Below are positions 24,220 to 48,500 of a stretch of 52,040 nucleotides of DNA, piece after piece. Within the stretch, counting starts at the first letter, position 1. Each line of letters opens with the position of its first letter. Under the pieces are notes generated by a model. That model ran no database searches and had not been told where the DNA came from. It saw only the letters and a program-made list of their open reading frames with translations. Origin of the DNA: an uncultured bacterium (GTDB lineage: Bacteria > Verrucomicrobiota > Kiritimatiellia > CAIKKV01 > CAIYGI01); the NCBI GenBank assembly GCA_903925685.1, contig CAIYGI010000299.1, forward strand, positions 1 to 52,040, written 5' to 3'. The position numbers were made by a program, and so were the translations under genes.

Positions 24220-24364
24220 TACGCAACCCTCCATGTTTCGGTTTAACGGCGGGGCCGATCTGGGCAGCGGTCCGGCACGACGGTCAGCAGTTTGCTGTGC
24301 CTGTGTGGCAAAGTCAAGAGCGATATGCCTTGACCAGTTCCGGCAATATTGCAACCATGCAAGC

Positions 24365-26847: not shown

Positions 26848-26902
26848 GTCTTGCTTCCTTCCATCTTGCGTGTCCTGGTTCGGTCCGCTGGGAACCGAAA
26901 CT

Positions 26903-29209: not shown

Positions 29210-29786
29210 GGGAGATGTCAACGACTCCGGTTTCGGTGTTGGCCAGCTCCCAGACGAAGCGGTAGGTGATCTCGCGCTGGCCGCGGGGGTTGCGCCGTTC
29301 CAGGGCCGAGACGCGGCCGAAGAGGAGGCCGTTCAGTTTGGCGAGTCGGCCGAATTTCTGGAGATCCTCCTGGTCGATCGGATTCTGCGTGATCCAGTTG
29401 TATTCGATCAGCCTGTAGATTTCGGCCGCGGCATTGCCGCCCGAGGCCATGACATCCACCGCGGCGGTGAACTTGAGGGTGTTCTCCTTGTTGAGGATGA
29501 CTTGCAGGGATTTCTGGAGTTGCCGGACGCGCACGTCGTAAGGGCATTCGCGCGTGTCGACGGGGCCGAGGGCGACGACATAGCCCTTGGGAAGCTGGCG
29601 TGTCAGGAGTTCGCGGGCGATGCTCTCGCTGGCCAGGTCGTAGTCATGGTCGTCCAGTCCGAACGACATGACGCCCGCCTCCTCCGTGGACACATACGAG
29701 GTCGTGGGCGGGTGGAAGCAGCCGCCCACGCATGCGGCCAGGGCAATCGGTCCCAATATACGAACGCAATTCCGATAGAGTTTCAT
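29181..29786 (-). CDS. LpoB/CsgG-like lipoprotein
   Basis: A 201-residue lipoprotein (signal ending ACVGGC, cysteine at residue 23) of the LpoB/CsgG-like fold. Residues 45-195 alternate strands and helices, with LNGLLFGRVSALERRNPRGQ and ITYRFVWELANTETGVVDIS as the family's closing strands. LpoB activates the peptidoglycan synthase PBP1b in enterobacteria. The YcfL-like gene just upstream mirrors the E. coli ycfL-lpoB pair, which supports the name, but the target here is unknown. Start at 29786 chosen because the signal peptide begins there; upstream in-frame codons belong to the neighbour region. Confidence 0.75.
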   Translation of the reverse strand: MKLYRNCVRILGPIALAACVGGCFHPPTTSYVSTEEAGVMSFGLDDHDYDLASESIARELLTRQLPKGYVVALGPVDTRECPYDVRVRQLQKSLQVILNKENTLKFTAAVDVMASGGNAAAEIYRLIEYNWITQNPIDQEDLQKFGRLAKLNGLLFGRVSALERRNPRGQREITYRFVWELANTETGVVDISHEYKIRKSQ

Positions 29787-29848
29787 CTGAGCTTCCCTTC
29801 GTCGTTGTCCTGCGTTGTCGTTCCCGGCGGGCTTGCCGAACCTTCCGT

Positions 29849-30295
29849 CTAGCGGTTCCAGCGTTCGCTGGTGCGTCGGAAGCGTACGATGAGGATGAAA
29901 TCCTCGGCCGTCTTGGTTGGCGCCACGGCGCGCATCCTGGCCTTTTCCATGCCGCTTACGTTGATCTGAACCCAGGTGGTCAGTCCTGAATTGATGGAGA
30001 GCCCATTCTTGGCCAGCCACTCGAACCGGTACTCGAACTGGCAGTCCTTCTGCGTGATGTTCTGGGCGGTGATCTGGGCCGAGATCAGGTCGTTTTCGCC
30101 GCGGGCGGCGGTCACCTCGGTGACGTTGAGCCAGCCCCGGAGCATCTTCGAGTTCACGGTGATGGAGTTCTTCTGGTAACTCTCCACCGTGATGCCCGCG
30201 GAGGGTGGGGTGCGGCACCCGGTCAGGACCAGGGCAAGCCCGAGCCCGAAGGCCCCGGCAGCCAGCCAAAGACGGGTTGGATCGGCGTGTTTCAT
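29849..30295 (-). CDS. YcfL-like (DUF1425) lipoprotein
   Basis: A 148-residue lipoprotein with signal ending LVLTGC (cysteine at residue 27). The mature part has the DUF1425 pattern: a first strand with INVTEVTAARGENDLISAQI-like alternation, QFEYRFEWLAKNGL and a closing TEDFILIVRFRRT-like strand. YcfL is an outer-membrane lipoprotein encoded beside lpoB in enterobacteria and its function is not well defined. The start at 30295 gives a normal signal peptide. The gene lies 62 bp before the LpoB-like gene. Confidence 0.78.
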   Translation of the reverse strand: MKHADPTRLWLAAGAFGLGLALVLTGCRTPPSAGITVESYQKNSITVNSKMLRGWLNVTEVTAARGENDLISAQITAQNITQKDCQFEYRFEWLAKNGLSINSGLTTWVQINVSGMEKARMRAVAPTKTAEDFILIVRFRRTSERWNR

Positions 30296-30326
30296 GGGGT
30301 CTTGCCTCCTGGTTTGATGCGGGTGG

Positions 30327-31448
30327 TTAGTCAAGTTTTGGGGCCGGCTTGACGAGGGGCTCCATGGTCGTGGGAACCTTGTCGCGGCGGCAGATGCTCA
30401 GCCGCTTGATCTCGCCCTTCTGGTCCACGATCACGCCCTTGCTGACCTTTTCGTTGACCTCGGTGATCTTAATCGCGCCGACGTAGCCCTCGTTGTACCC
30501 CAGGCTTTCCTTGGTGTCCGGATCGAGCATGACCTCGCCCGCGCTGTAGACCTTCAGGAGTTCGTCCTTGATGATGGCGCCTCGCCCGCGATTGACGATC
30601 ACGTTGTCGCCTTCGATCGACACGATTTTAATCGGATAGGCCGTATCCACTATGCTCGCCGCCTCCTTGATGGCCGCGTCCTTGTACATGCCGCTGATCG
30701 CATCCGCCACCACCAGGGAGGGGGTGTCGCGCTCACGGACCCGGGCCGTGCGCTCGACTTCATTGGGGAAGGAGGAGACGATCTTGCCCGATTTCACATC
30801 CACGGTGCGGACCACGGTCCGGAAATAGGCCCGGATCTTTTCCTGGCTTTGCCCGACATACGGAACCTGCTCACGCCGCTTGTCGACGACAAAAGTCGTG
30901 ATCACCGGCAGCACGACATAGTCGGCCCCGGACATCTGGCCGATTTTGACGGCCTTGTTGATATCCGCATACTCGGAATCGCCGAAATCGATTTCCTTGA
31001 TGACGGACTTGAGATCCTCGCGCTCCAATACGTCGAGTTTTCGCGCATTCACCAGGGCGTCGACCAGATAAGTGGTGTAGCCCGGATTTTCGATCAGCCC
31101 GGGGTCGGTGATGCCGAAGCGCTCGTTCAATTCACGGTCGACCCGTCGCCGCTGATCCCGCGCGAAGACCGCCGGAACCACGATCACGCGGGCCTTGCGC
31201 GGAGTGTCATCCTCCGCCACCGCCGGCGCCGCGGAGCGGACGACCTTCGGCTGCTCGCCTTTCACGGTCTCCGTGGAGAGGATTTGCGTTTCGCCGCCCG
31301 GCCCGGTCCGGATCACCGTGGCGCTGTCCTTGGTCCCGGGTTTCTGCCCGACTGTGACGTTCATGTTGACGTCCTTCGTCTCCTGGGCCAGAACCTGCAT
31401 TCCCGCCATCGCCAATGCCGCGATCGCTACCATCGATGCCCTTTTCAT
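30327..31448 (-). CDS. CsgG-family exported protein
   Basis: The 373-residue protein has a Sec signal (VAIAALAMAGMQVLAQ) and, after a Thr/Gly-rich region to about residue 85, a CsgG-like domain (about 85-260: VDALVNARKLDVLEREDLKS and QMSGADYVVLPVITTFVVD are family marks). A further C-terminal beta domain (280-360: VIVNRGRGAIIKDELLKVYS) resembles the FlgT-type barrel. CsgG-type proteins form or regulate outer-membrane channels. The ATG at 31448 is preferred over 31484 because the signal starts there and GGAGCGG precedes it. It heads the five-gene operon that runs to 25570. Confidence 0.8.
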   Translation of the reverse strand: MKRASMVAIAALAMAGMQVLAQETKDVNMNVTVGQKPGTKDSATVIRTGPGGETQILSTETVKGEQPKVVRSAAPAVAEDDTPRKARVIVVPAVFARDQRRRVDRELNERFGITDPGLIENPGYTTYLVDALVNARKLDVLEREDLKSVIKEIDFGDSEYADINKAVKIGQMSGADYVVLPVITTFVVDKRREQVPYVGQSQEKIRAYFRTVVRTVDVKSGKIVSSFPNEVERTARVRERDTPSLVVADAISGMYKDAAIKEAASIVDTAYPIKIVSIEGDNVIVNRGRGAIIKDELLKVYSAGEVMLDPDTKESLGYNEGYVGAIKITEVNEKVSKGVIVDQKGEIKRLSICRRDKVPTTMEPLVKPAPKLD

Positions 31449-31586
31449 TTTCCGCTCCTTCCGTTGCTTGTTACCGCAGACCACTCAATATCTTCCATCA
31501 ATCAGAGCAAACTTCCGACAGGCGGAATGCCTCTTCCCGCGCGCCGCCTGCCAATATGTGTATTCGGCCATTCAAACGCACAAATG

Positions 31587-33532: not shown

Positions 33533-36500
33533 TCACGGAATTCGCGGAGGAGGCTTCTCAATATCCTCTGTCGGGCGAAGCCTCCAAACAGTATGGCGCG
33601 TACACGCAATCAGCGTGCCGTGCCATGTGTCGAGGAAGAAGGGCGCCTCATTCTCCAAGTTTGGCAATAAGGGGCAATCCTCTGCCGATTTATGGCGGGG
33701 AAGACACTTGAATTCGTACGGCGAGAAGGCTCTGTCGACCATCGCATATAAGCCGTCATTCAGGATCGCCATACTTTTCCCCGACTGAAAAGACCCAACC
33801 GGCGTACGAAAGCTGTCGTGTGCGATGTTGATGAACGCGTTGCTGGCCGTATTCCAGAGGTACTGCTCGCGACCAGACCACCCGCCGAGCAGGCACCCCC
33901 CGTCTTCTGTACGCCGAGGCGTTTCCGGCCAAGTGGTGTACCAGTCCCGGACCTTCGATATCGCGCCATTCGTCAAGTTGAGCGACCAAAGGCCCATGTT
34001 TGCGGAACCCTGCGGCCATTGGCCGGCAACAACCATTCCCAAACGCTCATTCGTCTTATCCAGAAAGAACCCAGGTATTGAATATGGCGGACAGTTGTCC
34101 AGTGCCGATGCTTGCTGGCGTCTGGCGCTGCTTGCCAGAATAGTATAGTCACCCCGTTCAAGGTCGTATTGCACGAGCAGCCCCTCGCGGAAGCGGATCT
34201 CCCATCCGGTGCCGTTCCTGATCGTCTCAAGCACGCAACACCCCAAGTAGAGTTTTCCTCCAACTTCGATGACAGATGTGATTTCAACCTCCGGCAGATC
34301 TCGTCCGGCTATGAGTTGTCGCACGCGCCCGCCATTGAGCGGAAAAATCAGCAAGCGGCTGGATGTGGGAACATACACGGACTGCTGCCCGACATTGACC
34401 TGCTTCCACGTCACCCTCGGGTATTTATCGAAAAACACGAACGCGTTGGTTGTCGTATCGACGGTACCCAATCTGTTCCGGCTGCCGTTCTTCAGGTTCA
34501 GAGAGTGCAATGCGGCGGTCTCTGGACGCCCCTCCCCCGTCAGCACATAGGCCGTGTCACCCGCCAGTTCGACATCCTTGATGACGGCTCGGCCCGCCAT
34601 GGAAAACAGTTTCTCTTGAGATATCCATGGAGAGTCGCGTTGGACAGGCTTTTCCGATGCGTTGTAAGCCTTATCCATCTCCTTGCCATACCGAAGCCTG
34701 TAGCAGAGCCGAATTCTCCCGATGTTTTCTTCACGCGAGTCAGTGGCGCCCCCTTTCAACATCGAACCATCAACAGGGTTGTGATATTCAAGGGGCGCCA
34801 GACGGTAACGGGAATCTTTGAGTTGCGCTACGGCTTTCTCGATATACGCTCCGGGATGTTCAGCGCCTTTTTTGTCCCAGGTGTCGAGAAACAGAAACGC
34901 GTTCGGCATGGTCACGCCTTGCTTCTCCTCGGACTCCACGATCGCTTTCATCGCCGACACAACAACATTCGTTGGGAAGCGCGCTCGCGCCGCTGCCTCA
35001 AGCGCGTGGCAGAGGTAATACATGGCGGCAGGTCCTTCACGAATGGCCTGGTCCACGGCCACCGTCACTCGCTTTTCGACGATCTTATCCGCATCTGGAT
35101 ACACGCCGCTGGCGATCGACGCCGTAAGAGCCGCACACATACTGGCCTGAATACTGCCCTTGTTTTCCCAACCCGCGTAGAAATCCATCAGACGCTGTTT
35201 TCCGCTCTTTGAAAGATTCAGGATCGATGAATTTCCGGTATTCTGAGTTCGATACTCAACTCTATCTCCGCCGATCTTTTCTTGTTTCCCGTATTCTCGC
35301 CACTTCCTGACATATCGCAGGTTGACCCATTTCAGCTGATTCGGCCAATCATTGCCTCCGATTTTCAGAATGCCATCGAGCCACTCATCGGCATTATTCG
35401 CCCATATGGCGACATACGTTCTTCGCATGTGGTTGTATGTTTTGTCCGTTGGATAGTATTTCCAGAAGAAGTCATGATACCGGTGACGCAACGTATCCAT
35501 GCGTTGCGCCAGAGTCGCGTCATACTGACTGCTCGATTCCATCGCAATAAACAGCGGTTCTTCAATGCCCCAATAATCGGACGGAACGCACTTCTTGACG
35601 ATCCACTCCTCGCGGATGGATAGATCGCGTTCGATGAAATCAAGCAGCGTTGTAAACTCTTTTCTCGTCGCCAGCGTCCCCGCCATGTCCTCCAGCGCTT
35701 CGCATAACAGCATCTGCTTGGCGACAGTTTGAGAAGCCAGCGCGAAAGCGCTTTCCGCCGTTGCCAGGACGGCTTCAGGGGAGGAATGGCGCGCCTTTAA
35801 ACGGTGGAATTCGGCGGCCAACCGCTCTGCTTCATTGAGTCTGGCGCCGGGCTCTTCCTTGATCGGGGACAATCGCAAATGCGTAAGCACATCGTTGACC
35901 ACATGCTCGGACAGAGGCCCAAGTTCATCAACCTTTCCTTCCACTGACACCGAGCCGATTTCCTTTCCGGGGGCGTCGCTCATGGAAGCACGCACCTTGA
36001 TCGTGTCGCCTCGGGCCGAAGCATCAAGGTCAAGCAGGATCGTGGAAGCCAGCAGGCTGCCTCGCCGATCCCCAGTCAACCCGGATTCCTTGTTGACATG
36101 CTCAAGCCGGCTTCGTTCCAGGAGCGCGACATCCGGTGAGCGGACCAGTTGGCGAGCGACAAGCATTCGCAGGCAATCACCCAGACCGTTCAGGCGAGAA
36201 GGCAGGTCCACGCTCCTGACGCTCAGCAGGGAAAGGGTAAGACACGCAGGATCGCCCTTCTTCCGCTGCCGCTTTCCGATTGCTTTTGCCAGCACTTCCG
36301 TGGCCGACGTCGCGAATGCCTCCAGGGAACCTGCCCGCGCGAGGGCTTGATCGCACAGCCTCACGCCGGTCGCGGCGTCAAAGGCAACAATGGATATGAC
36401 GGCTAGCGTATTGCTTGTTGCCTTATCGCCATGCAGTTCCGCGAAAATATCGCACTGGAGCAGTTGGCCCGCTTTCAGGGCATCGTCGACGGACAGCAGT

Positions 36501-36724
36501 CCTTCCAGGGCCAGCTTGTGTTCGGCGAGCACCTTGCCGACATTGGCACGGTCGAGGAGTACAACGCCGCCATCCTTGGATAGCATCGTTTCCATCAACG
36601 CCACAATGCCTTTCGCCTGCTCATCCCCTGACGGGCACAGCGCCAGGCGCGGCTTGGCCTGCTCACCACACACAAGTGAGGCGAGAAGCGAACACACTGC
36701 AAGAATGTAGGCGTTAGCCTTCAT
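33533..36724 (-). CDS. Exported protein with tandem CsgG-like domains and a propeller-like C-terminus
   Basis: A 1063-residue exported protein. After a short signal (AYILAVCSLLASLVCG) there are two CsgG/FlgT-like domains (about 25-150 and 155-290: VVLLDRANVGKVLAEHKLAL in the first, VALLERSRLEHVNKESGL in the second). A long helical region follows (about 300-690). The last 370 residues contain repeated strand motifs (AYVLTGEGRPE, VYVPTSSRLLIFPLN, LYLGCCVLE and a WSLNLTNG unit) of a beta-propeller kind. Enzymatic residues are not evident. It is the last gene of the island and starts 122 bp after the hydrolase gene, so it could be read from the same transcript. Confidence 0.6.
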   Translation of the reverse strand: MKANAYILAVCSLLASLVCGEQAKPRLALCPSGDEQAKGIVALMETMLSKDGGVVLLDRANVGKVLAEHKLALEGLLSVDDALKAGQLLQCDIFAELHGDKATSNTLAVISIVAFDAATGVRLCDQALARAGSLEAFATSATEVLAKAIGKRQRKKGDPACLTLSLLSVRSVDLPSRLNGLGDCLRMLVARQLVRSPDVALLERSRLEHVNKESGLTGDRRGSLLASTILLDLDASARGDTIKVRASMSDAPGKEIGSVSVEGKVDELGPLSEHVVNDVLTHLRLSPIKEEPGARLNEAERLAAEFHRLKARHSSPEAVLATAESAFALASQTVAKQMLLCEALEDMAGTLATRKEFTTLLDFIERDLSIREEWIVKKCVPSDYWGIEEPLFIAMESSSQYDATLAQRMDTLRHRYHDFFWKYYPTDKTYNHMRRTYVAIWANNADEWLDGILKIGGNDWPNQLKWVNLRYVRKWREYGKQEKIGGDRVEYRTQNTGNSSILNLSKSGKQRLMDFYAGWENKGSIQASMCAALTASIASGVYPDADKIVEKRVTVAVDQAIREGPAAMYYLCHALEAAARARFPTNVVVSAMKAIVESEEKQGVTMPNAFLFLDTWDKKGAEHPGAYIEKAVAQLKDSRYRLAPLEYHNPVDGSMLKGGATDSREENIGRIRLCYRLRYGKEMDKAYNASEKPVQRDSPWISQEKLFSMAGRAVIKDVELAGDTAYVLTGEGRPETAALHSLNLKNGSRNRLGTVDTTTNAFVFFDKYPRVTWKQVNVGQQSVYVPTSSRLLIFPLNGGRVRQLIAGRDLPEVEITSVIEVGGKLYLGCCVLETIRNGTGWEIRFREGLLVQYDLERGDYTILASSARRQQASALDNCPPYSIPGFFLDKTNERLGMVVAGQWPQGSANMGLWSLNLTNGAISKVRDWYTTWPETPRRTEDGGCLLGGWSGREQYLWNTASNAFINIAHDSFRTPVGSFQSGKSMAILNDGLYAMVDRAFSPYEFKCLPRHKSAEDCPLLPNLENEAPFFLDTWHGTLIACTRHTVWRLRPTEDIEKPPPRIP

Positions 36725-36846
36725 GGGCATTGGGATCTCAACACCAAGATTTTTTTATCATTCAAATTTCCATACCCCAAGCCAGTTTTATTTGTCGCTT
36801 GTCGTGACTCTGATCCGACCTGCATCGGGCGGTCAGGCCGACTCTA

Positions 36847-37827
36847 CTAGCGGGGCTTTCCCGTCACGGTCTCCTGCCAGATTTCCGCAAAACGCCGGGA
36901 GGGAAGCCAGCTTGTCAATTCGCGCTCTTGACGGGCACGGCTGCTGTCGGACGGAAAAATTTCCTGGGTTTTGAGATCTCCCAGCCAGAAAGAATCGCCC
37001 ACCGGCGGTTTTGCCTCCTTGGCCGACGCGGAGGCGCTCAGGACCGCATCGAAAAACTCCACGGAGATACGGCCTGAAGCGCCAATTGCATGGCCGATGT
37101 TGGGTTCCCGCACGAGGCACCATGGCGCCCCAAGACGGCGTCCGACGGCGAAGCGGGACGTGATGGCTTGTATGCGAAAGTCCTGGTCCGTTTCTCCAAA
37201 GAAGAAAATGGCCGGGATTTTAAGCACGCCTTGCTTGCCCACATCGTCATAATAGCCCCCTTTATTTACGACAAAAGCCATCACTGCCTCGGGATGCAGG
37301 CAGGCAAAGTTGTAGGCATATTGCCCCCCGGCGGAGATTCCCCAGATCAGCAGCGGCCGTTTTTCCAAACCTGCCGCCTGGCCGATCAAGCCGCCGAAGG
37401 TCCGGAGGGCGTCAAAAAGAACGCGCCCTTGGTCGCCTTTGGCCACCTGGTAGTAGATTGTGCGTCCATTGGTGAGATAGCAACCCAGCAGGGCCAGGCG
37501 ATATTTGCGCGCGAGGTTTTGCCAAGCAGGATCTTTAACCATGCCGCGTCCGTCACCCTGGAGTCCCGGCAGTAGAACAACCACGGCCAGCGGAAGTGAT
37601 TCCTTTTGCGGAATCCAGAAACTGAAGAGGGATTTGCCCAGGACACCATCTGTTTTGGCCTCCCACTCCAGGGGCGCCTCCGGCTCGACGGCCAATCCCG
37701 GGAGACCCGACACCACCAGAGCCAGCGCCAAGAGCCTCCCACAGCGGCTGGCGTAACGGCTTAGTGCGCGACGCCGGATTGTTATCCAGCTTGCCATCTC
37801 TCGATGTTCATGTCGCGGTTTATTCAC
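36847..37827 (-). CDS. Exported alpha/beta hydrolase (esterase-like)
   Basis: A 326-residue protein with a hydrophobic export signal (LLALALVVSGLPGLA) and an alpha/beta hydrolase fold. The nucleophile elbow is WGISAGGQYAYNFA with Ser165. An acidic residue in FFFGETDQDF and His in NIGHAIG complete a plausible triad, and VVVLLPGLQGDG is the oxyanion strand. It resembles PHB-depolymerase/LpqC-type secreted esterases. The start is a GTG whose overlap with the preceding stop is 4 bp, or an ATG at 37797 giving a cleaner signal peptide. It is the active counterpart of the C-terminal domain of the preceding fusion protein. Confidence 0.78.
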   Translation of the reverse strand: MNKPRHEHREMASWITIRRRALSRYASRCGRLLALALVVSGLPGLAVEPEAPLEWEAKTDGVLGKSLFSFWIPQKESLPLAVVVLLPGLQGDGRGMVKDPAWQNLARKYRLALLGCYLTNGRTIYYQVAKGDQGRVLFDALRTFGGLIGQAAGLEKRPLLIWGISAGGQYAYNFACLHPEAVMAFVVNKGGYYDDVGKQGVLKIPAIFFFGETDQDFRIQAITSRFAVGRRLGAPWCLVREPNIGHAIGASGRISVEFFDAVLSASASAKEAKPPVGDSFWLGDLKTQEIFPSDSSRARQERELTSWLPSRRFAEIWQETVTGKPR

Positions 37828-40800
37828 TGTTCCTCATTCCATAATTTCTTGAAGTCTTCCGATGGCAGTGTTTCCAGGTAATTCGGCGGAATCCGCTGCA
37901 CCTGTTGATCATCGGCGTGGTAGCAACGGCCATCCCGTAAATCCGTCACCCAGCGCACGCTGCTGGTAGCCCCGTCTTTCCGCAAACACTCGGAAAGGAA
38001 TGCCCGGGCCAGGCGTTCCATGCGCGTGCTTCGGTTATGGACCTCACCGGACCAGATTTTCCAAAGAACCGGCACACCGGCCTCGCGGGCAAAAGTCACC
38101 CATCTCAGCGACGGCCCCAACCGTTCCAGGATATTGATCCGAAGATCGTCTTCCGCACCGCACGTAACGAGACACGGGATGCCGCGGAGGACGGAGACCG
38201 GGTTAAGTCCCAAGGCAAAATCAACGGGGGTCCAGGTGGCCGCACTGTGCGCGCTGATAGCCGACACCAATTCCGGTTTCCAGAGCGCGAAACGATGGAC
38301 GAACTGGGCTCCGCCCCCGTAGCCGTGCAGTAACAGCTTGTCGGTTTGAATATTATTATAACGGGACCGGAGTTCAGCCAGGGCATCCAGCAACGCCTGC
38401 CCGGACCAAATCTGGGGACTGTGGAATCCACGCGCGGGGTCTTCAGCGTCTTCATCCACGCAGACGAACTGGGGTAGGAGCAGGAACATATTTTCAGAAT
38501 CGGCAAAGGCAGCCCATGGACTCCCCTCCGCACAGTAGGCGAAAGTCCCTTCATTGAGGGATGGAACGATGACAAGGACGCGGTGGGGCGGACCGTCTTT
38601 CGGACGATAGCCACGGGGTACTCGAACATGGCAGATCAACTCGGCATTCTTGATGTTGGGCGTGCGCACCGTAAATTGCAGGATATGTTCGTCCGGCCGG
38701 GTTCCATTGTCGGCACTTCTCAACTCACTCAACAGCCGCAGCGTCGTTTCCCGGACCAAGCCGTAATCGCGCCGGTTGTAATCAATCCGGTCCGGGGAAA
38801 TACGCTTGATGACGTTGAGTTGGCGTGGGCCGCTCAATTCCAGTGCCAACCGCGCCGCGTCCAGCGCCTCAGTTTTCCGACCGGCGGCGCGCAGAACCCA
38901 GCCAAGGCGCATGGCGGCATTAGCGCGCAGTTCCCGCGCGGTTTCCGGAGGAACCACAGTGCTTGCTGGATTCTCGACGATGCGCCGGAAAAGCCGTTCG
39001 GCCTCCTGAATCCTGTTGTTCTGGTACATCACCAGGGCAAAATCCATCACGAGGGCTTGCTCGTCATAGCTTAAAGCGCCCGTTCCCATAAACTGTTCCA
39101 ACTGGGGAAGCCGCCGAAGATAGATCTTGCACAGATCTTCCAACGGCATGGCCGAATAAGGATAGGCGTGGATAAACCTGACCCAAGATCGATCCAAAAG
39201 CGGATGCTGAGCCCAGCAGCGGCGGCCAATCTCTTCCTCCTGGTGCGCAATATAATCGAGGTTCAGGACTGTATCCGGCAGGTTTCTCCCGACCATGTCC
39301 GGCGGTGGAATCCGTGGCATCGTCCGCCAGTCGGCGAGAATCTGGGTCCGTGGGTATGCGCCGCAACGAGCCTCGGCTTCCTTAAGCATCCGGCTGAGTT
39401 CGCCGCGCAGGGCCTCGAATTCACTGTCCGGAACTTCTTTCATCAGATTCCAGAGCGATAGCTCATGAATCAGCGTCCGCGCCCAGAGTTCCCCGTGGAC
39501 TAAATTTCCGGGATTCTTCGCGAGTAGAATTTCCCGCTTCAGTTCATTGCCGGCATAGTCCACCCATGCGCGATATTGCGCCCGCTCGGCCTTCCCATCC
39601 AACGGATACCGCATGGGAAACGAAATCCAGTAATTACTCTCATGCAAGGCATTGATGACGAAGGCGAGGAGCGTATAAGAGTGGGGATACTTCTTGATCA
39701 GCGCGGGATCCGGCACGTAGGTATCCCGTTCCCGGCCATAGACAATGTAGAGGGCGGCGCAGGCCTCCTGGAAGAGGTCCACTTGCGAATCGTCAAACCA
39801 CGTCGCTTCCGATGCGGCCCACCAATTAAGCAACTCGTAATCAATCACTCCACCCCCATGAAACACGGGCCGGATGTGGTGTGGATAACTGTGCTTGGGT
39901 TTGGGGAAGCTACGAGGGGCGTCGGGAGACCCCGCGGCAATGAGCGCCAGTTCGCGAAGTTGGCGTGCCATGTCAGCCACCCTGAGGAGTGCCGCTTGTC
40001 CGGGGGAGGCGGCATGCCGATCGAGCCGGGATTGCACGCCGCCAAACCGTTTTGCCAGCTCATCCGGCGGAAACCGGGCGATTTGTTCCAGAAGGGCTGT
40101 GTATTCGGCAAAGGCCCCCGGGGCGTCGTCCGGGTGTTCCGCGATGAATTTCTGTAGGTCCTTGAAAAAATCGCGCTTTTGATCGGAATAGAGAAGTCCA
40201 TTCGGTTTCCACGGGTAGAACTGGTAAATCTGCGCCAGTTCCAACCAGGCATGCCACGGATGCGCCACCGGCAGGCGCGCCAGCCATTCCTCATTCAGGG
40301 CGAAATTGACGTACCCTTGAACGCCATCCTCCGCGTCCGAGCCCCGGCGGAGCCGGTTGCCCCAAAGCGCTGTGTTTGTGGGATCCGCCTGCATCAATTG
40401 CAGCAACGCCGTGTTTGCCCGGACAAAATCATCGGCCTTCACCAACCGGGTCAGTTCAGGCACTGGCACAAGCTCCGGGTTGTTGCGCAAAATCGGCGGT
40501 TGGGCGACTGGCTTCATGGCGCGGACGGCGGCGATCATGCGCACCACGTCCGTAGGCCAGGACTTCTCGTTCCTGGGCATTTCCAGCGTGTAGTCGCCCA
40601 GTCGTTCCCCCGTCAGGGTATCCAGTACCGTAAGTTGGAGGGACAGGTTTGTTCCCGAGGACAGGAGCGTGCCGCCGATACATTTCCCTGCCAGCAGGTT
40701 CGGAGCATCCTGCCACCGTGTGCCCAGGACATCGGGCGTGCCCACTAACTGGTCATATTCATCGCGCAGACGCGCCAGTTCGTCGGCCAGCCGGATTGGC

Positions 40801-42137
40801 TGTTGGCGATCCCGGACCAGTTCATTGACCATCAACATTTCCAGATTGCGGGCTTTTTCACTTTGTCGTGGCCGGGATTCATCCACGACACCCAGAAACG
40901 TGATCCCTTCATCGGGAATGCCCCTCCCATAGGCGGAATTTCCCCGCGCGACCAAGCCAATGCGAACGAAACGCCGCAGCGCCCCGGCCAGATGTGGGAA
41001 ACCCAGAAGTTCATAACACCGCGCCTCCCACAGGCAGGCATCCTCAAACTTCATATTGAGTAAACTGGCTTGCTCGAATTCGGAGGCGGCAGCCCAGTAG
41101 TCCCCGCCCGAAAATCGAGCCATACCACGGTAAAAAGGCTGAAGGGCTTCGGCTTGAATCGTCATCTCAAAAGGAAGGGGCGGTGCGGATTTTCCGGAAT
41201 CGCTACCGATCACCGAGAGCAGCCAGTCTACGATCTCCGGCGAAAACCGGACCACACCCGCTCGCAACTCAATGTCGAAACGACGTTTCGGCCCGTTCAA
41301 TCCCCGAGTTACATTCAGGACGGAAAGTTCCAGGCTTGGTTTCGCTCCAGCATGGAATTCCCCGCTGACCAGCCATGCGGCACCCAACAACGCCAAGGCT
41401 GGCCGGTCATTATCCGTAAAGCCCGCGCTTTTCAGCGCCTTCTCACGGGTCACACTGCGGATCAAATTCCGATCGACGATCGACAGGCCCCGTTCCATGA
41501 GGCGCGCGCGCAACTCAGCACCGAGTCGCATAGCAGTGGCCTGGCTATCGGTCCCGTCTCCAACCGTAGCGAAATCGAGCACAACGACGGCATGGCGGCC
41601 GGCAGGTGCGACGGCAGTGATGGCAGCCAGATGCCGGCGCAGGAAGGTTGTCACCATGGAACCCAGCAGTTCGGCCCGATCGGCGTTCGCTGGATGGACG
41701 CGCACGGTCTCCGATCCGAGGAGTCGTCCACTGCGCGCCTCGATCAGTTCCACCAGCCAGTCAGTTCCCGCTGGGTCGGCAGACCGCAGGTGGACAAATC
41801 CATCGATATCCAGCAGCCGCCCGAGCCGTGCCATTCGATCCGGGTTTGAAACCAATGCTGCCAGTTCCTGCTCCTGGATAAAGAGCTCGATCTGTTCCCG
41901 ATCGACAAGCGCCCATGTTTTTTCGCCGGCCAGCCGCACGGTCAGTTGTGCCTGCAAGCCGGCCGCCTGGGGGTCCATGACCAAAGCCAGGCGAACAACA
42001 GAGCTGGCGTCCGGTAAAGATGACTCCGGAACTCCGCCGCAGACCTTCATGCTACAGGCCAGCAGGAGCGTCAACGGGAAGACGATCCTGCGAACCGTCC
42101 GGCGAAAGCGCCGCCAAGAAAACTTTAATTGTGTCAT
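37824..42137 (-). CDS. Giant tandem-CsgG / degenerate alpha/beta-hydrolase fusion protein
   Basis: A 1437-residue exported protein. Its first 45 residues are a basic plus hydrophobic signal with a lipobox-like LLLAC. Two CsgG/FlgT-like domains follow (about 48-165 and 175-300: WALVDREQIELFIQEQELAAL and LSIVDRNLIRSVTREKALKS), then a very long helical, partly TPR-like region (about 330-1150). An alpha/beta hydrolase domain closes it (about 1175-1400). In the nucleophile elbow LLLHGYGGGAQFVHRFA the serine position (residue 1274) is Gly, though Asp (CGAEDD) and His (SGEVHNR) remain. It is coupled by ATGA to the gene before it. Confidence 0.68.
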   Translation of the reverse strand: MTQLKFSWRRFRRTVRRIVFPLTLLLACSMKVCGGVPESSLPDASSVVRLALVMDPQAAGLQAQLTVRLAGEKTWALVDREQIELFIQEQELAALVSNPDRMARLGRLLDIDGFVHLRSADPAGTDWLVELIEARSGRLLGSETVRVHPANADRAELLGSMVTTFLRRHLAAITAVAPAGRHAVVVLDFATVGDGTDSQATAMRLGAELRARLMERGLSIVDRNLIRSVTREKALKSAGFTDNDRPALALLGAAWLVSGEFHAGAKPSLELSVLNVTRGLNGPKRRFDIELRAGVVRFSPEIVDWLLSVIGSDSGKSAPPLPFEMTIQAEALQPFYRGMARFSGGDYWAAASEFEQASLLNMKFEDACLWEARCYELLGFPHLAGALRRFVRIGLVARGNSAYGRGIPDEGITFLGVVDESRPRQSEKARNLEMLMVNELVRDRQQPIRLADELARLRDEYDQLVGTPDVLGTRWQDAPNLLAGKCIGGTLLSSGTNLSLQLTVLDTLTGERLGDYTLEMPRNEKSWPTDVVRMIAAVRAMKPVAQPPILRNNPELVPVPELTRLVKADDFVRANTALLQLMQADPTNTALWGNRLRRGSDAEDGVQGYVNFALNEEWLARLPVAHPWHAWLELAQIYQFYPWKPNGLLYSDQKRDFFKDLQKFIAEHPDDAPGAFAEYTALLEQIARFPPDELAKRFGGVQSRLDRHAASPGQAALLRVADMARQLRELALIAAGSPDAPRSFPKPKHSYPHHIRPVFHGGGVIDYELLNWWAASEATWFDDSQVDLFQEACAALYIVYGRERDTYVPDPALIKKYPHSYTLLAFVINALHESNYWISFPMRYPLDGKAERAQYRAWVDYAGNELKREILLAKNPGNLVHGELWARTLIHELSLWNLMKEVPDSEFEALRGELSRMLKEAEARCGAYPRTQILADWRTMPRIPPPDMVGRNLPDTVLNLDYIAHQEEEIGRRCWAQHPLLDRSWVRFIHAYPYSAMPLEDLCKIYLRRLPQLEQFMGTGALSYDEQALVMDFALVMYQNNRIQEAERLFRRIVENPASTVVPPETARELRANAAMRLGWVLRAAGRKTEALDAARLALELSGPRQLNVIKRISPDRIDYNRRDYGLVRETTLRLLSELRSADNGTRPDEHILQFTVRTPNIKNAELICHVRVPRGYRPKDGPPHRVLVIVPSLNEGTFAYCAEGSPWAAFADSENMFLLLPQFVCVDEDAEDPARGFHSPQIWSGQALLDALAELRSRYNNIQTDKLLLHGYGGGAQFVHRFALWKPELVSAISAHSAATWTPVDFALGLNPVSVLRGIPCLVTCGAEDDLRINILERLGPSLRWVTFAREAGVPVLWKIWSGEVHNRSTRMERLARAFLSECLRKDGATSSVRWVTDLRDGRCYHADDQQVQRIPPNYLETLPSEDFKKLWNEEQ

Positions 42138-43084
42138 ATTGGTTTCAAGACTAACTTGGGTAATAACCGCTCCGCTATTTGAGCGGCGGCTTTCTGAAGC
42201 GCGGCCTTGCCGGCGATCTGCTCGGTCAGATCAACAACCACCGCGGTCTGACGGTCAGTGGCGATCACTTTATCGGTCTGAGGATCAACGGCCTTGACCT
42301 CCAAGCGCGCCTTGACGCTAACCAGATTTCCGTGGCGCATTGCAAATTCACTGAAACCCTCGCCTTCAATCAGAATGTCGGCCTTCTTGGACTCTGCCGC
42401 CTTCTCCAGAACTTCAAAGCCCGTCTCCTTGCATAAAAGCGTCAATTCCGTCTCGGCGGCCGGATCAATCGTGGCCAGTCCAACATGCCGCTCGCGAACA
42501 TTAATTGCTACAATAGGCCGCTTGGCATCGCCCAATTGCTTTTTTAGCGCGGCAATCCGGTCTTCCATCCTCACTTCTTTGGCCACCAGTTTGTCGGCAT
42601 CCTTGGTAATGGTGGCGGCAATTTTCTCGGCCAGCGCCTCCGTCAAAGGCCCGATCTCGTCGCTGGTCTTGCCCTTGACGGATTCGCCGAGCACCCGCGT
42701 GGTTTCCGTGCCGATGATCTTGGCCACAAGATATAGCGTTTTGTCGGCTTCGATCACGGAGCCGGTCACCAGGACCTTCGCGCCGGTCAACTTGCCCACC
42801 TTCACGGCCTGATCCGGCGTGACCATGCCTGAGAGGTTCAATTCGTGCTCGTCCATCGTCTTCTTCATGTCCTGGCGGTCCACCAGATAAAGCTCCGGTT
42901 TGGCCACGAGTTTGGCGAACAGGATATCCGCTACTTTGGCGCCATAGTCCCTGGCGCCCGCACCGCGCTCTTCGAACGGGAAGATTGCCGTTGGATACAC
43001 CGCCGGCGCTTTTGGCGCATCCGCCGCCCATGCCATTCCGCTTGCCACTGCCAATACAACCATAACCGCGATATGTTTTTTCAT
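42134..43084 (-). CDS. CsgG-like exported protein
   Basis: A 316-residue protein with a Sec signal (VMVVLAVASGMAWA, cleavage near residue 21). Residues 28-175 form a CsgG-like domain: LYLVDRQDMKKTMDEHELNL is the strand-helix mark and AKVLVTGSVIEADKTLYLVA a core beta hairpin. Residues 190-316 form a second, more divergent domain of the same kind (IVAINVRERHVGLATIDPAA, ADILIEGEGFSEFA). Compared with the giant neighbour, it is the minimal member of this family in the operon. It starts 40 bp after the gene upstream and ends in a 4-bp overlap. Confidence 0.78.
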   Translation of the reverse strand: MKKHIAVMVVLAVASGMAWAADAPKAPAVYPTAIFPFEERGAGARDYGAKVADILFAKLVAKPELYLVDRQDMKKTMDEHELNLSGMVTPDQAVKVGKLTGAKVLVTGSVIEADKTLYLVAKIIGTETTRVLGESVKGKTSDEIGPLTEALAEKIAATITKDADKLVAKEVRMEDRIAALKKQLGDAKRPIVAINVRERHVGLATIDPAAETELTLLCKETGFEVLEKAAESKKADILIEGEGFSEFAMRHGNLVSVKARLEVKAVDPQTDKVIATDRQTAVVVDLTEQIAGKAALQKAAAQIAERLLPKLVLKPI

Positions 43085-43123
43085 TCTGACCTCCTGCGTT
43101 TTGACTCGTCCACTGGAAAATGG

Positions 43124-44128
43124 TTACTTCTCTTTCACCAACTGTTCCAACACCTTCTCAAACAAGAACCGCGGGGTTGGACTTTCGTTCCACTTGGAGA
43201 CAATGACAAAACCGCACACCACGATGCGTCCTTTCCCTTCGCCGAACCGCATGTCAACCCACACCCAGCCGCTGTCATCCTGCGTCACCGCTGCCCACAC
43301 GCCGGTTCGATCTCCCTGAAGCGCCAGGCGAGACGACACCAGTTTGCCATCCGGAGCCCAGCCCTCCGCATCCAGCCGCTTGTCAAGTTCGGTAATGATG
43401 CCGGCCTGCTTCAGGCTGATGGCCGAGGGATGCGGCTGATCGCTGCCGGCACTGCCCGGCAACCGCATCGAGCCATCGGCCGGCGCCAGGCATAGCACGG
43501 GAATCCCCGCGGCCGCCGCCTTTACCATCATATCGGTCAACCCGCGATACTCCTTCATCGAGACCCCTTCGGCAATGATCAGAACCGAATCCTTGAACTC
43601 CGCGAACGCATCCACGTTATGCGTCTCTTTGAACGGGATACCGATCTTGGTGAACAACGCGGCGGTCTTTCCCGCCGGATCGAACAACTGGATATTCAGT
43701 TTCTTGAGCCATTCGGCTTTGCCGGCGAACGGATCTTCGGGAAATATCCACAACGGTTTAGTCGCCTCAACCACGGCTTTGTCCGCGCCCGCTCTGGTCA
43801 AGGCCAAGGCGAGCGACGCCGGCATGACGACGCCTTCCTTAACGGCAGGCACGGCCAACTTGATCTCGACCACGCTGGGTCTGGAGGGCGCGACGTCAAC
43901 CGCCTGTTCTCCGCGGGCGATGGTGCGTCCTTCGCCGGCAAATTGCCACGATACCGTCCCCCGTGCCGATTCCTGCGAGGTTACGGAAACATGGAAAACC
44001 GCTTGCTTGCCGCCGAAGACGTTTCCCCATGGTTCTTGCGGGTGGAGCGTAAACACGGCTTCCTTCCCCTGGCCGGTGGACGCATATGTCAGGATTGTCG
44101 CCAAAACGGCAAAAAGCGTTCTCAGCAT
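43124..44128 (-). CDS. Exported protein with glutamine-amidotransferase-like domain
   Basis: A 334-residue protein with signal sequence (LFAVLATILTYASTGQG) followed by a strand-rich domain (about 25-130) and, from about residue 150, alternating strands and helices (DSVLIIAEGVSMKEYRGL, AAAGIPVLCLAPADGSMRL, GKGRIVVCGFVIVSKWNE) of a class I glutamine-amidotransferase-like or ThuA-like fold. The catalytic Cys of a true amidotransferase is not seen at the expected elbow, so it is probably a binding or scaffold domain. The ATG at 44128 overlaps the end of the anti-sigma gene. Function unknown. Confidence 0.65.
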   Translation of the reverse strand: MLRTLFAVLATILTYASTGQGKEAVFTLHPQEPWGNVFGGKQAVFHVSVTSQESARGTVSWQFAGEGRTIARGEQAVDVAPSRPSVVEIKLAVPAVKEGVVMPASLALALTRAGADKAVVEATKPLWIFPEDPFAGKAEWLKKLNIQLFDPAGKTAALFTKIGIPFKETHNVDAFAEFKDSVLIIAEGVSMKEYRGLTDMMVKAAAAGIPVLCLAPADGSMRLPGSAGSDQPHPSAISLKQAGIITELDKRLDAEGWAPDGKLVSSRLALQGDRTGVWAAVTQDDSGWVWVDMRFGEGKGRIVVCGFVIVSKWNESPTPRFLFEKVLEQLVKEK

Positions 44129-44880
44129 GGGCCGTCCTCCTTCGGCTTTAGACGCGTGACCGTCTGATAAACACGGTACTCCTTGGAGCCGACAATCGTC
44201 ACGGCGATGGCCGTGGGCTTGCCATCTTCCACGACGTCGCTGGAGTCGGAGTAAATCCGGATCGGTGCGTTCAGGGAGAGCCGGGAATCCACGGCAAAGC
44301 GGCCATCTGCCACCGGGTAGATCCACAAGCCTATCCGGTCGTCACGTTTTTGGTTCGGGGCGATGTCAATGACCTGCTCGCTTCGGGTCAGAACGTCGGA
44401 TTCCCACACTTGCTTCCATGGGGCACGACTCCCGGTGCGAGAGACTACGGCAATATGCACGGCAAAATGCGATCCATCGTGCTCGGACTCGTCTTTGTCC
44501 GGGTCAATCCCCAGTTCCACCGCGCCGTCGGACTGCGCGACCCATCGCAGATTACCGGCGAACAGGCGGTTTACTTCGTCGAACAGGCGATGGACGGACG
44601 CGGAGGACTGGACAAGATCGGGGGTCCCGGTGCTGTTCGCGAGCAGCGGGAGCCGAACGACCGCCAGCGCGATGGCCAGAGTGGTCGCCGCTCCGAGCGA
44701 GAACCAGGCAAGCCGACTCCAAGGCGAGAATGCCGGTGTTTCCGCCAAGGCGGAAGAGGACCGGTGGCGCGCTTCGCGCATCTGTGTCGCGATATTCCGT
44801 TCCAGAGCGGCGAAGGATTTGTCATCGGCCGCCGCGCGAGAAGCCCAGTCCTTGAGCAGTCTGTCGAGTGGATCTGTCAT
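44122..44880 (-). CDS. Membrane-anchored putative anti-sigma factor
   Basis: A 252-residue protein encoded directly after the ECF sigma gene with an ATGA overlap, the usual arrangement for anti-sigma factors. Residues 1-55 are charged and cytoplasmic (DPLDRLLKDWASRAAADDKS). One membrane helix spans about residues 56-82. The remaining 170 residues would be periplasmic and include GSHFAVHIAVVSRTGSRAP and a beta-rich sensor-like part. The zinc anti-sigma HxxxCxxC motif is absent, so binding to the sigma factor is inferred from position only. Start at 44880 is set by the overlap; an upstream reading lies inside the sigma gene. Confidence 0.72.
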   Translation of the reverse strand: MTDPLDRLLKDWASRAAADDKSFAALERNIATQMREARHRSSSALAETPAFSPWSRLAWFSLGAATTLAIALAVVRLPLLANSTGTPDLVQSSASVHRLFDEVNRLFAGNLRWVAQSDGAVELGIDPDKDESEHDGSHFAVHIAVVSRTGSRAPWKQVWESDVLTRSEQVIDIAPNQKRDDRIGLWIYPVADGRFAVDSRLSLNAPIRIYSDSSDVVEDGKPTAIAVTIVGSKEYRVYQTVTRLKPKEDGPC

Positions 44881-45443
44881 GATTTCAGGTATCGCACAAG
44901 ACGCTTCTGGAGTTGTTTGCGTGCTTCGTAGACGCGCCAATACATGGTGGCCGCCAGGCAGCCCTCAATCCGCGCCGCTTCTTTGACATCCAAACCCTGG
45001 ACGGCGGTGAGTGTAATGGCGGAGCGAAGCGAAGGGGACAGGTCGGCCAGCGCCCGCTCGATTTCCGCGCCGGTCTCATTCGCCATCAAGGCTCGATCCG
45101 GTCCCGCCGCCCGGTCAGGTTGGTCGGGTGGCTCGGCGTACACATCCGCCGGATTCCGGCTCCTGCGGCGGAGGAAGCTGTGGGTCGTGTTCATGGCGAT
45201 CCGATAGAGCCAGGTGGAGAAAAGGGCTTTTTTCTGGAAACCGGCGATGCCGTTGGCCATCCGGATGAATACTTCCTGTGTGATTTCATCCGCGTCGGCA
45301 TGATTGAGGACCATAGCGTAAATCATGGCTCTAACCTTTGGCATGTGCCTGTGTACGAGTTCATCCAAATGCCGCATTTCGCCTGTTTGCCGGAAACTGT
45401 CAACAAGATGTTCGTTAGAAATACCGTCCATAACAGTATCCAT
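44877..45443 (-). CDS. ECF sigma-70 family RNA polymerase sigma factor
   Basis: A 188-residue sigma factor with regions 2 and 4 only. Region 2 spans about residues 20-90 (YAMVLNHADADEITQEVFIR and FSTWLYRIAMNTTHSFLRRR). Region 4 spans about 130-185 (LADLSPSLRSAITLTAVQGL then DVKEAARIEGC and ATMYWRVYEARKQL). There is no region 3, as in ECF factors. GGAG lies 15 bases before the ATG at 45443; a second ATG at 45431 is possible. It heads the co-directional operon reaching 33533 and is divergent from the peptidase gene at 45550. Confidence 0.92.
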   Translation of the reverse strand: MDTVMDGISNEHLVDSFRQTGEMRHLDELVHRHMPKVRAMIYAMVLNHADADEITQEVFIRMANGIAGFQKKALFSTWLYRIAMNTTHSFLRRRSRNPADVYAEPPDQPDRAAGPDRALMANETGAEIERALADLSPSLRSAITLTAVQGLDVKEAARIEGCLAATMYWRVYEARKQLQKRLVRYLKS

Positions 45444-45549
45444 CTACACGATTAGACTCCGGAAAGCAAAAAATCTTTGGTAATTATTCGCGGATTTTTG
45501 GCCAACTTCGGTGCTTTCTTCTGCGCCCGCCATTTGCTATACTGATAAC

Positions 45550-48500
45550 ATGTTCAAAGCGTACGTCAGGCTTGGCGGTTGTGCGCTGGTGGCGGCGTTG
45601 TGTACGGTGCTGCATGCCGCCCCCGCCAACCGGCTGGTCGCCGCCGCCATGAAGGGCGATGCGCTGGTCTGCCAGTACACCTTTGCCGATCCGGTCGTTC
45701 ACCATGCGACCGGCGGCGACAGGGTGCAGGTGGCGGATGCCGAAATCGTTTCGGCGCCCGGCGCGCCTTTGCTGCCGCACTTTACGGCCCGCATCCTGAT
45801 ACCCGACGGCCGCGGCGTTCAAAAAGTGCTCGTTGAGCCCCTGAACACGCGGCAACTGGATGGCGTATTGCGCATCCCGGCGGCTGCCGTCCCGGTTCCG
45901 CTGTCTCGTCCCGATCTTGTCCAGCCAGCCCGGCCTGACCCCGCCATCTACGGCAGCGACAGCCTCATTCCGGCCGCCGCCGGCGCGCAAACCGCTGCGC
46001 TGGTCAAACACGGCCGTTCCATCTTGCTGGTGCGCCTGAATCCCATCCAGTACCGTCCGCAATCGGGCCGCGCCTGGTTCACTCCCGCTTTTACCGTCAC
46101 CGTCACGCTCCAACCACCCGCCGCCCGCGCGGTGGCGGTGCGCGCGCCGTCGCTACGCAGTCGCGCCAGCGATCGCGCTGACCTTGCGCTATCCGCTGAC
46201 AATACCGGTCAACTCAATACGCCCACCTCTTCCTCGCCCAGTTCGGCCGCCGCGCCCGCCTCGGCGCTGGCGCCGCTCGGCGGTGGCGCATTGCCGTCCG
46301 GCGACTTCGACTATGTGATCGTCACAGACACCAATCTGCTGGCCACGCCGCCCCCTTTTAACTTCGCGGCGCTCTGCGCGGAGCGGCGCGCGCAGGGCCT
46401 GAATGCCACCAATGTCACGCTCGACTGGATTGCCGCCAACTACAGCGGACTGCGTCCCGACGGCGGCACGGACATGCCGACACGCATCCGGGCCTTCGTC
46501 GCCGACGCCTACACCAACTGGGGCGTGCGCTACGTCTTGCTTGGCGGCGACGTGTCGCACGTGCCCGCGCGCCAGTGCTTCGTGGACTCCGGCGTTCCGG
46601 GCTACGCCGAAAACATGCCGGTGGACATCTATTACGGCTGCCTGGACGGCACATACGACGGCAACCGCAACGGCGTTTACGGCGAACCGAACGACGGTGA
46701 AGACGGCGGCGATGTCGATCTCAGCGCCGAGGTTTACGTTGGCCGCCTGTCCGTGGCCAGCACCCAGGAGGTTGCCAATGCGGTTCGCAAAATCTTGATC
46801 TACGAGGCGCAACCAGCGGCGGCGTTGACCAACATCTGCATGGTCGGCGAGTACCTCGGATTCGGCGGCATCTCGGACTACGCCACGCCGGCACTGGAGC
46901 AGATTCGCCTCGGCGGCCTCTACGACGGGTACGCCACGACCGGTTTCATGAACTCTGCATGGTCCAACACCTGGTCCACCAGCGTCAACCTCTACGACGA
47001 CCAGCGTGGCTGGAACAAGTTCGACCTGGTCGCGCTGGCCAATCAGCGCGGCTTTCAGGTTTTCGACCATCTCGGCCACGCCAACCAGGTCTACAACATG
47101 AAACTGGGAACCGGTGACCTGTTCCTGTTCACAAATGCCAGCCCGTTTTTTGCCTATTCCCAAGGCTGCGACGCCGGCTGGTTCGATGCGCCCGACTGCT
47201 TCGCCGAAGTTTTGACCACGATGCGCGCCGGCGCCTTTGCGGCCATCATGAACGCCCGCTACGGGTGGGGCGAATCCGACAGCACCGACGGCCCCTCGCA
47301 GCGTTACAACCGCACGTTCTGGGATGCGGCTTTCAATGCCGACGCCGCCCAACTGGGCCGCATCAATCAACTTTCCAAGGAACGCTGGCTGGGCGACATC
47401 AACGGCGCCTGCATGCGCTGGTGCTATTACGAGCTGGCGCTTTTCGGCGATTCCGCCACGGCCTTTGCCCGCCCGATTGTCGGCGGTCCGCCGCTGATCG
47501 CGCATACGCCGCTGGAAAACACCACCAACAGCGTGGGCGCGTACGCCATCGAGGCTGTGATTCAACCCGGCAGCACGCTCGATGCCAGTTCGCCGGCAGT
47601 TCTTTGGACCACCAACGGACCCGCCGGCCCCTTCGCCACGGCGGCGATGAGCCGCGTCGAGGGCAGCCTTTTCCGCGCCACGCTGCCACCGCAGCCGCTC
47701 GGAACGACGCTGCACTATTGGATCAGGGCGCGAACCCTGAGCGGGCTCACGGCCACGGCCCCCGCCACTGCGCCCGCCGACAGTTATGCGTTTCAAATCA
47801 CATCGTCCCTCAATCTGTTCGTCCTGGGTGCCCCGGCGGATATCGGCGTGACGTTGCCTGGATATGGTTATCATGCGCTGGCCTCGGGCGTGACCGTTCG
47901 CGCCCGGGCCCCCGCGCTGGTATACGACGGCGCTGACCGGCGCTGGGCCTGCCGCGGCTGGAGCGGTCTCGGCAGCGTGCCCGCTGCCGGTGCGGAAACC
48001 AGCCTGGTATTCACAATCGACAGCAGTTCCGTCATCGAATGGCAGTGGCGGCGGCAATATGCCCTGATCCAGACCGCCTCCGTCGCGGGGGTTGTCAATA
48101 CCTCAACCTGGTGGGACGCGGGGGCTACGGGTGTCACGGTCGCCGCCGCGGAACGCTGTGTGCAGGAGGGGACCAATTACGCCTTTGTAGAATGGCAATG
48201 GAACGGCGCGCGCTATCCCAACGCCACCGATGCGGCCCCGCTGTCGGCTTCCGGCGTGCTTGCCGGCGGGCCACGCAGCGCGCTGGCGATTTATCTGCCG
48301 CTTGCGCAGTCCAGCGGTACGAACGGACTGCCGGACTGGTGGCAGCGTCGTTACTTCGGCGCGACAGGGGTGGATGCGGGGGCCGACAGCGACAACGATG
48401 GATTCAGCAATCTGAAAGAGTATCGCGACGGCAGCAACCCGCGCGATGCGCTGAGCCGGCCCAGCGGTCCGGATGTTGCGCATGCAGCGCTTGACGACCC

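Follow-up and report, generated by a model that had tools for sequence, protein, structure and literature searches.

Envelope stress responses are known chiefly from Proteobacteria and Gram-positive bacteria. The present analysis concerns a seven-gene operon headed by a gene for an extracytoplasmic function (ECF) sigma factor, located on the minus strand of a 52,040-nt stretch (contig CAIYGI010000299.1, positions 1 to 52,040; hereafter the window, meaning the whole stretch analysed) from an uncultured bacterium of the Verrucomicrobiota, class Kiritimatiellia. The seven products are called P1 to P7 in gene order. The closest well-known arrangement is that of RpoE, RseA and RseB in Escherichia coli and of other class-I ECF operons, with which the operon shares an ECF sigma gene, an overlapping gene for a one-span anti-sigma factor, a following gene for an exported protein and, as a prediction, positive autoregulation. 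However, P3, the exported protein, is not established as an RseB counterpart, since it remains with P4 after loss of the sigma and anti-sigma genes, and the output genes encode proteins of the CsgG fold. The promoter is also different. An AAC in the -35 element is typical of ECF promoters and was part of the original description of ECF factors, later definitions having been restricted to the possession of only the sigma2 and sigma4 domains (PMC8103513); the -35 consensus found here, CAAAGA, lacks this AAC.

A second described system is Tt-RpoE1/Tt-TolB of Thermoanaerobacter tengcongensis. Like the operon family described here, it combines an ECF sigma factor, a 16-nt promoter spacing, a GTC in the -10 element (CGTC in that system) and a neighbour annotated as tolB, and it is autoregulated, as is predicted for the present operon (PMC3397946). 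In contrast, TolB is itself the anti-sigma factor in that bacterium and the -35 element is GTTAC, while in the present operon the anti-sigma factor is a separate protein and the TolB-like proteins are the outputs (PMC3397946).

The operon belongs to a known kind, the ECF envelope operons, and its output is uncharacterised and unusually conserved. It may work like an envelope response of the RpoE/RseA type whose output is a family of enlarged TolB/LpoB-like proteins and not a curli channel. The interpretation preferred here, which in our judgement has an even chance of being right, is an ECF-sigma-controlled cell-envelope module of Kiritimatiellota and Verrucomicrobiota in which P3 and P4 provide a scaffold in the periplasm and the giant cargo proteins vary. 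A bolder version, in which P3–P4 would be the invariant core of an undescribed Verrucomicrobiota envelope machine whose single scaffold takes up interchangeable cargo by way of homologous tandem CsgG-fold domains, all of it controlled by one ECF sigma factor through a non-canonical promoter, is put forward tentatively, with the balance tilted against it. The regulatory half of the interpretation is well supported by sequence comparisons; the biochemical role of the module is what we infer. No paper combining CsgG with Kiritimatiellota was found, and the literature on CsgG, LpoB and TolB proteins and on the ECF factors of this group yielded no description of the operon. It would represent a phylum-wide, promoter-defined ECF system of the poorly studied Verrucomicrobiota and Kiritimatiellota, with a protein (P4) conserved nearly to the level of RecA and bearing no assigned function.

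The operon and its regulatory genes

The initial annotation had described seven chained minus-strand genes forming one operon headed by an ECF sigma factor. The seven open reading frames were confirmed in the window with the same coordinates, overlaps and translations, although P7 is 1065 residues long and not 1063. The features are as follows:

45452..45479, minus strand: predicted ECF promoter of the operon (conserved CAAAGA-N16-GTCTAA site)
44877..45443, minus strand: P1, ECF sigma factor of 188 residues with regions 2 and 4 only (Pfam, NCBIfam and PDB matches)
44122..44880, minus strand: P2, predicted anti-sigma factor of 252 residues (family alignment; zf-HC2 in relatives; ATGA overlap with the sigma gene)
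43124..44128, minus strand: P3, exported protein of 334 residues, with an N-terminal Ig/LacZ_4-like beta-sandwich and a C-terminal Rossmann-like alpha/beta domain (AlphaFold2; linkage)
42134..43084, minus strand: P4, exported protein of 316 residues, with two successive domains of the CsgG/LpoB/TolB-N fold at about 30-166 and 190-312 (PF03783, AlphaFold2, Foldseek)
37824..42137, minus strand: P5, putative cargo protein of 1437 residues, with tandem CsgG-fold domains at about 47-280, a helical/TPR middle and a C-terminal alpha/beta-hydrolase-like domain (profiles, alignment)
36847..37827, minus strand: P6, exported alpha/beta hydrolase of 326 residues with a GTG start (GISAG motif; homologous to the P5 C-terminus)
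33533..36730, minus strand: P7, putative cargo protein of 1065 residues, with tandem CsgG-fold domains at about 28-267, a helical middle and a C-terminal propeller-like region at about 705-1050 (profiles)

The pairs P1–P2, P2–P3, P4–P5 and P5–P6 overlap, and 39 nt lie between P3 and P4 and 116 nt between P6 and P7. Terminator-like sites are not enriched in the region (10, against a shuffle mean of 13.4). The operon is real, and its unity is supported by the conserved gene order in relatives.

P1 matches the Pfam models for sigma-70 region 2 (Sigma70_r2, PF04542, 8.5e-16) and region 4 (Sigma70_r4_2, PF08281, 1.4e-07), which are the only models above cut-off. It also matches the TIGR02937 superfamily model of NCBIfam and, in the PDB, SigH, SigE and RpoE (1e-22 to 1e-18). 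The region 2 and 4 matches bear out its assignment as an ECF sigma factor. According to the family alignment, P2 consists of a short cytoplasmic N-terminus, a single membrane span at about residues 56-80 and an extracytoplasmic domain with invariant Trp residues. No Pfam model matches the P2 of the window, and a PDB sequence search with the P2 profile gave nothing credible. In a related locus (L025), a zf-HC2 zinc finger stands at the start of its orthologue (7e-6); another, just under the Pfam cut-off (3.6e-4), is carried by the protein at the same position in L023. Because of these zinc fingers in relatives, its one membrane span and the ATGA shared with the sigma gene, P2 is predicted with good confidence to be the one-span anti-sigma factor of P1, a role that had been suggested for it from the window alone.

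The promoter, which the initial annotation had not described, was found in the present analysis. A conserved site, CAAAGA-N16-GTCTAA, lies upstream of the sigma genes in most relatives, often with GC preceding the -10 element. In the window, the -35 element (CAAAGA, 45474-45479) and the -10 element (GTCTAA, 45452-45457) are separated by a 16-nt spacer, and 8 nt lie between the latter and the first ATG of the sigma gene. This exact pattern occurs only once in the 4.12 Mb of the own genome. In leave-one-out scoring the window site reached 31.3 bits, against at most 9.9 across 50 shuffles, and a site of at least 18 bits was present at 19 of 33 sigma genes, each of the 19 scoring above all of its 50 shuffles. 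Sites of at least 22 bits numbered 28 in 0.99 Mb of fetched loci, compared with 0-2 in shuffles. Whereas the -35 element departs from ECF promoters, the -10 element does carry the ECF-type GTC; the base before it, which would complete the CGT of an ECF-type -10, is C in many relatives and A in the window.

The site is not confined to sigma genes. It also precedes a CsgG cargo gene that is unlinked to the operon (G014:C167:619), a cargo gene upstream of the operon (G109:C51:23231), a divergent cargo gene (L087) and, in two loci (L091 and L093), P3. Some further exact matches across the class, which have no recognisable link, are probably due to chance. Since this promoter stands before the sigma genes and relatives also have it before cargo genes and P3, positive autoregulation is predicted, with P1 transcribing the operon from its own distinctive promoter. 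P2 may sense an envelope signal through its periplasmic part and then release P1, and the freed sigma factor would switch on the operon, its own gene included, through CAAAGA-N16-GTCTAA. The motif makes the regulon searchable across the genomes of the phylum.

Conservation of the P3–P4 pair

P4 has relatives at 19 loci of the GTDB collection; 16 of 58 near relatives carry one and, with a threshold of E <= 1e-40, so do 56 of 388 genomes from the phylum. A scan of all GTDB species with P4 gave no match titled as a named group outside the Planctomycetes-Verrucomicrobia-Chlamydiae (PVC) assemblage. The neighbourhoods of these relatives were fetched and then scanned with family profiles. The core order ECF sigma factor, one-span anti-sigma factor, secreted P3 and P4 recurs in Kiritimatiellota and in more distant Verrucomicrobiota, so that the comparison of neighbourhoods proposed in the initial annotation shows the sigma/anti-sigma/CsgG linkage to be conserved across species. 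Of the 38 loci with a strong P4, 37 have P3 as its immediate upstream neighbour, and the exception (L092) has P3 one gene further off. The sigma gene is upstream of P4 in 18 of the 32 such loci with sufficient flank, a linkage far from chance, because the own genome contains just 9 sigma-70 region 2 genes in its 4.12 Mb. For distant Verrucomicrobiota, in which P2 and P3 fall under detection, most of the loci checked show a sigma gene followed by a protein of about 200 residues that has a single hydrophobic span, then by a secreted protein and P4; the genes often overlap, and some loci have an inserted cargo gene or another gene. Proteins of the P7 type occur in 45 of the 388 genomes; P4 is present in 40 of these, where 6.5 would be expected (Fisher p = 7e-36, a value that ignores phylogeny).

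An ordinary neighbourhood without shared function, with duplicates of CsgG-domain genes lying in a sigma operon by coincidence, could be invoked given that such genes are common in the own genome and that the sigma gene is missing at many P4 loci. However, it is disfavoured by the P3–P4 adjacency, the co-occurrence of P4 with P7-type proteins and the promoter common to sigma and cargo genes, and we regard it as very unlikely. P3 and P4 are a conserved pair, kept together even where sigma and anti-sigma genes are absent, and for this reason P3 probably works with P4 and not as an RseB-like co-sensor.

P4 is the most conserved component, with 51-76% identity to its relatives in the alignment. 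In BLAST comparisons between families of the class, P4 shows 54-77% identity, RecA 67-81%, P3 26-49% and the sigma factor 35-52%. On this measure P4 is nearly as conserved as RecA despite its patchy distribution, and as its identity range is close to that of RecA, horizontal transfer is neither demonstrated nor excluded. An origin from mobile elements was considered and rejected, since P4 had no match in plasmid and phage collections and P2, P3, P4 and P6 had none in PHROG. An origin as a defence system was likewise set aside, as PADLOC gave no match.

Several observations count against the interpretation of the operon as a scaffold module under its own sigma factor. The sigma gene is absent beside P4 in 14 of the 32 strong-P4 loci with sufficient flank, which means that the module does not always depend on linked control. 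No site of at least 18 bits was found at 14 of the 33 sigma genes, the co-occurrence value given above carries no phylogenetic correction, and the nearest sister species compared (G001, of the same genus) lacks P4. Moreover, scaffold or ring formation and the docking of cargo are deduced from shared fold and linkage.

Additional copies of P4 were also observed. At L025 (3788-4798), a second P4-like gene with about 30% identity, which has the second domain of P4, lies right after P4, possibly as a duplication inside the operon. The own genome carries a second P3–P4 copy (L008, G000:C166:145-2202) with neither sigma gene nor promoter, whose P4 is 69% identical to that of the operon and closer to the copy at L012 (77%). 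Another of its contigs (L007, G000:C116) carries four tandem cargo genes. That these two contigs represent one split paralogous operon is unproven, the contig ends having no overlap.

Folds of P3 and P4

P4 scores above cut-off with the Pfam model for CsgG, the curli channel (PF03783, 34.3 bits), the match covering the first CsgG domain and, out of 210 profile positions, only 36-101. AlphaFold2 (26 sequences; mean predicted local distance difference test score, pLDDT, 87; predicted template modelling score 0.68) models P4 as two successive domains, each about 130 residues long and built in the order strand-helix-strand-helix-three strands-helix. The CsgG-like identity first given to P4 is supported both by Pfam and by the periplasmic fold of the model. 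The best Foldseek match is LpoB (2.6e-6), followed more weakly by Cj1090c, pre-pore CsgG, GNA1162, the TolB N-domain, PelC and FlgT. Each P4 domain therefore resembles LpoB, the TolB N-domain, PelC, FlgT/FlgO and GNA1162 in fold, but differs from them in its tandem arrangement and operon context and is only 10-20% identical.

The initial annotation had stated that proteins of the CsgG type make or gate channels in the outer membrane, and had suggested a system for envelope sensing and remodelling or for secretion. Taken further, the channel lead would make P4 and the cargo proteins pores, with P5 and P6 acting on a secreted substrate. The Pfam match and the presence of CsgG among the Foldseek matches are consistent with it. 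However, the strands of the modelled LpoB-like domains are connected by short turns, leaving no insertion big enough for the two membrane hairpins of CsgG, and LpoB, TolB and PelC match P4 equally well or better. P4 and P7 both lack a lipobox, and that of P5 (LLAC) is marginal. Neither curli genes nor CsgA/B/E/F-like partners were seen among the Pfam matches of the operon proteins, a genome-wide search not having been made. The absence of hairpin insertions and lipobox indicates that P4 shares the periplasmic core of CsgG and not its channel, and according to the model it would consist of two LpoB/TolB/PelC-type domains devoid of channel features. Positive evidence for secretion is lacking, an envelope stress or maintenance module fits better, and an outer-membrane channel is highly improbable.

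The same matches raise the possibility of an LpoB-type control of peptidoglycan synthesis, in which wall stress would lead the sigma factor to raise P4 and cargo proteins as activators of penicillin-binding proteins while the hydrolases trim wall or lipids. LpoB is the best structural match to P4, and LpoB models also appear in the Pfam and TIGR scans, although under cut-off (19.3 against 22.3 bits in Pfam; 19.9 against 110.6 for TIGR02722). Against it, LpoB is an outer-membrane lipoprotein whereas P4 has no lipobox, no gene for a penicillin-binding protein or wall synthesis was noticed recurring in the neighbourhoods (whose genes were not exhaustively annotated), and a fold match of this kind is common to many unrelated proteins. 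This control is quite unlikely. A Tol-Pal-like or periplasmic-ring machine, with P7-type proteins as enlarged versions of TolB, its N-domain and propeller included, and P4 as a ring of the FlgT/PelC kind, is unlikely as well: the TolB N-domain, the PelC dodecamer and FlgT of the H-ring are among the P4 matches, and P7-type proteins have the order CsgG/TolB-N fold and then propeller, but no Pal or TolQRA homologue was seen in the operon and the propeller assignment is weak.

The initial annotation had given P3 an amidotransferase fold. Its AlphaFold2 model (mean pLDDT 92) shows an N-terminal beta-sandwich and a C-terminal alpha/beta domain; the PDB matches of the model in Foldseek are chiefly beta-sandwich enzymes and complement-type domains, and a LacZ_4 domain was detected in three relatives. 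P3 itself has no Pfam match and its profile found nothing credible in a PDB sequence search. The conserved motif in the family alignment is GEG instead of the GxCxG of class I glutamine amidotransferases, and there is no invariant Cys. The label is therefore unproven, with no amidotransferase match, and the replacement of GxCxG makes such activity unlikely. Homologues of P3 residues 32-216 (approximately) also occur within proteins of 1400-1890 residues in other Verrucomicrobiota (for instance, G128:C94:79016, G075:C15:104005 and G122:C1:921835).

In the scaffold interpretation preferred here, P4, probably together with P3, would build a soluble periplasmic scaffold or ring on which the giant cargo proteins may dock through their matching CsgG-fold domains. 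In this way the cargo could place modules that bind or act as enzymes in the periplasm or at the outer membrane, protecting or remodelling the envelope. If this holds, CsgG/LpoB-fold domains would serve repeatedly as modular adapters, which would account for many proteins annotated as "CsgG family" for which a curli channel is unlikely.

Cargo proteins and neighbouring genes

On their own, the CsgG matches of P5 (16.5 bits) and P7 (15 bits) are under the Pfam cut-off. With a profile built from relatives, a pair of N-terminal CsgG-type domains is detected in each, in agreement with the tandem domains initially attributed to them. The downstream genes of relatives mostly encode proteins of 900-1800 residues that have one or more N-terminal CsgG-fold domains and varied C-terminal modules, such as propellers (Kelch, BNR, PQQ), TPR, ankyrin, HEAT, formylglycine-enzyme-like and hydrolase modules. 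As judged from their sequences, P5, P7 and their diverse counterparts start with CsgG-fold domains homologous to the first domain of P4.

Two hydrolase domains had been proposed for the operon. P6 has weak, sub-threshold matches to polyhydroxybutyrate-depolymerase-type models of NCBIfam and no Pfam match. It keeps the GxSxG motif (GISAG, residues 163-167) and is probably active; a homologue with an intact GHSAG lies downstream of the core genes at L102. The C-terminus of P5 is homologous to P6 (E 1e-5), but its nucleophile elbow is GYGGG, the Ser of GxSxG being replaced by Gly, so this second domain lacks the nucleophile. The C-terminus of P7 gave a weak profile match to the propeller of a sensor kinase (4a2l, 3.7e-5) and no TolB/PD40 match in Pfam; the protein thus combines an N-terminus of the CsgG/TolB-N fold with a weakly matched propeller-like C-terminus.

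Other genes of the window were also noted. A divergent gene on the plus strand (45511-50613), starting 31 nt past the sigma promoter, encodes a 1700-residue protein with a family C25 (gingipain-type) peptidase, a C25 propeptide and MAM-like and BspA-type leucine-rich repeat regions, and is a candidate giant surface or secreted protease. A class-III aminotransferase gene lies about 480 nt downstream of P7. Four consecutive minus-strand genes (25570-31484) make up another CsgG-containing cluster, which lacks the promoter motif; one of them encodes a CsgG protein standing alone (30327-31484, 48.8 bits) and another a weakly matched TPR protein (25570-26847). Finally, a plus-strand gene (23957-25573) encodes a 538-residue protein with a CsgG domain and a formylglycine-generating-enzyme (FGE-sulfatase) domain, a pairing that recurs in the operon cargo of L051 and L028 with the enzyme domain at the C-terminus.

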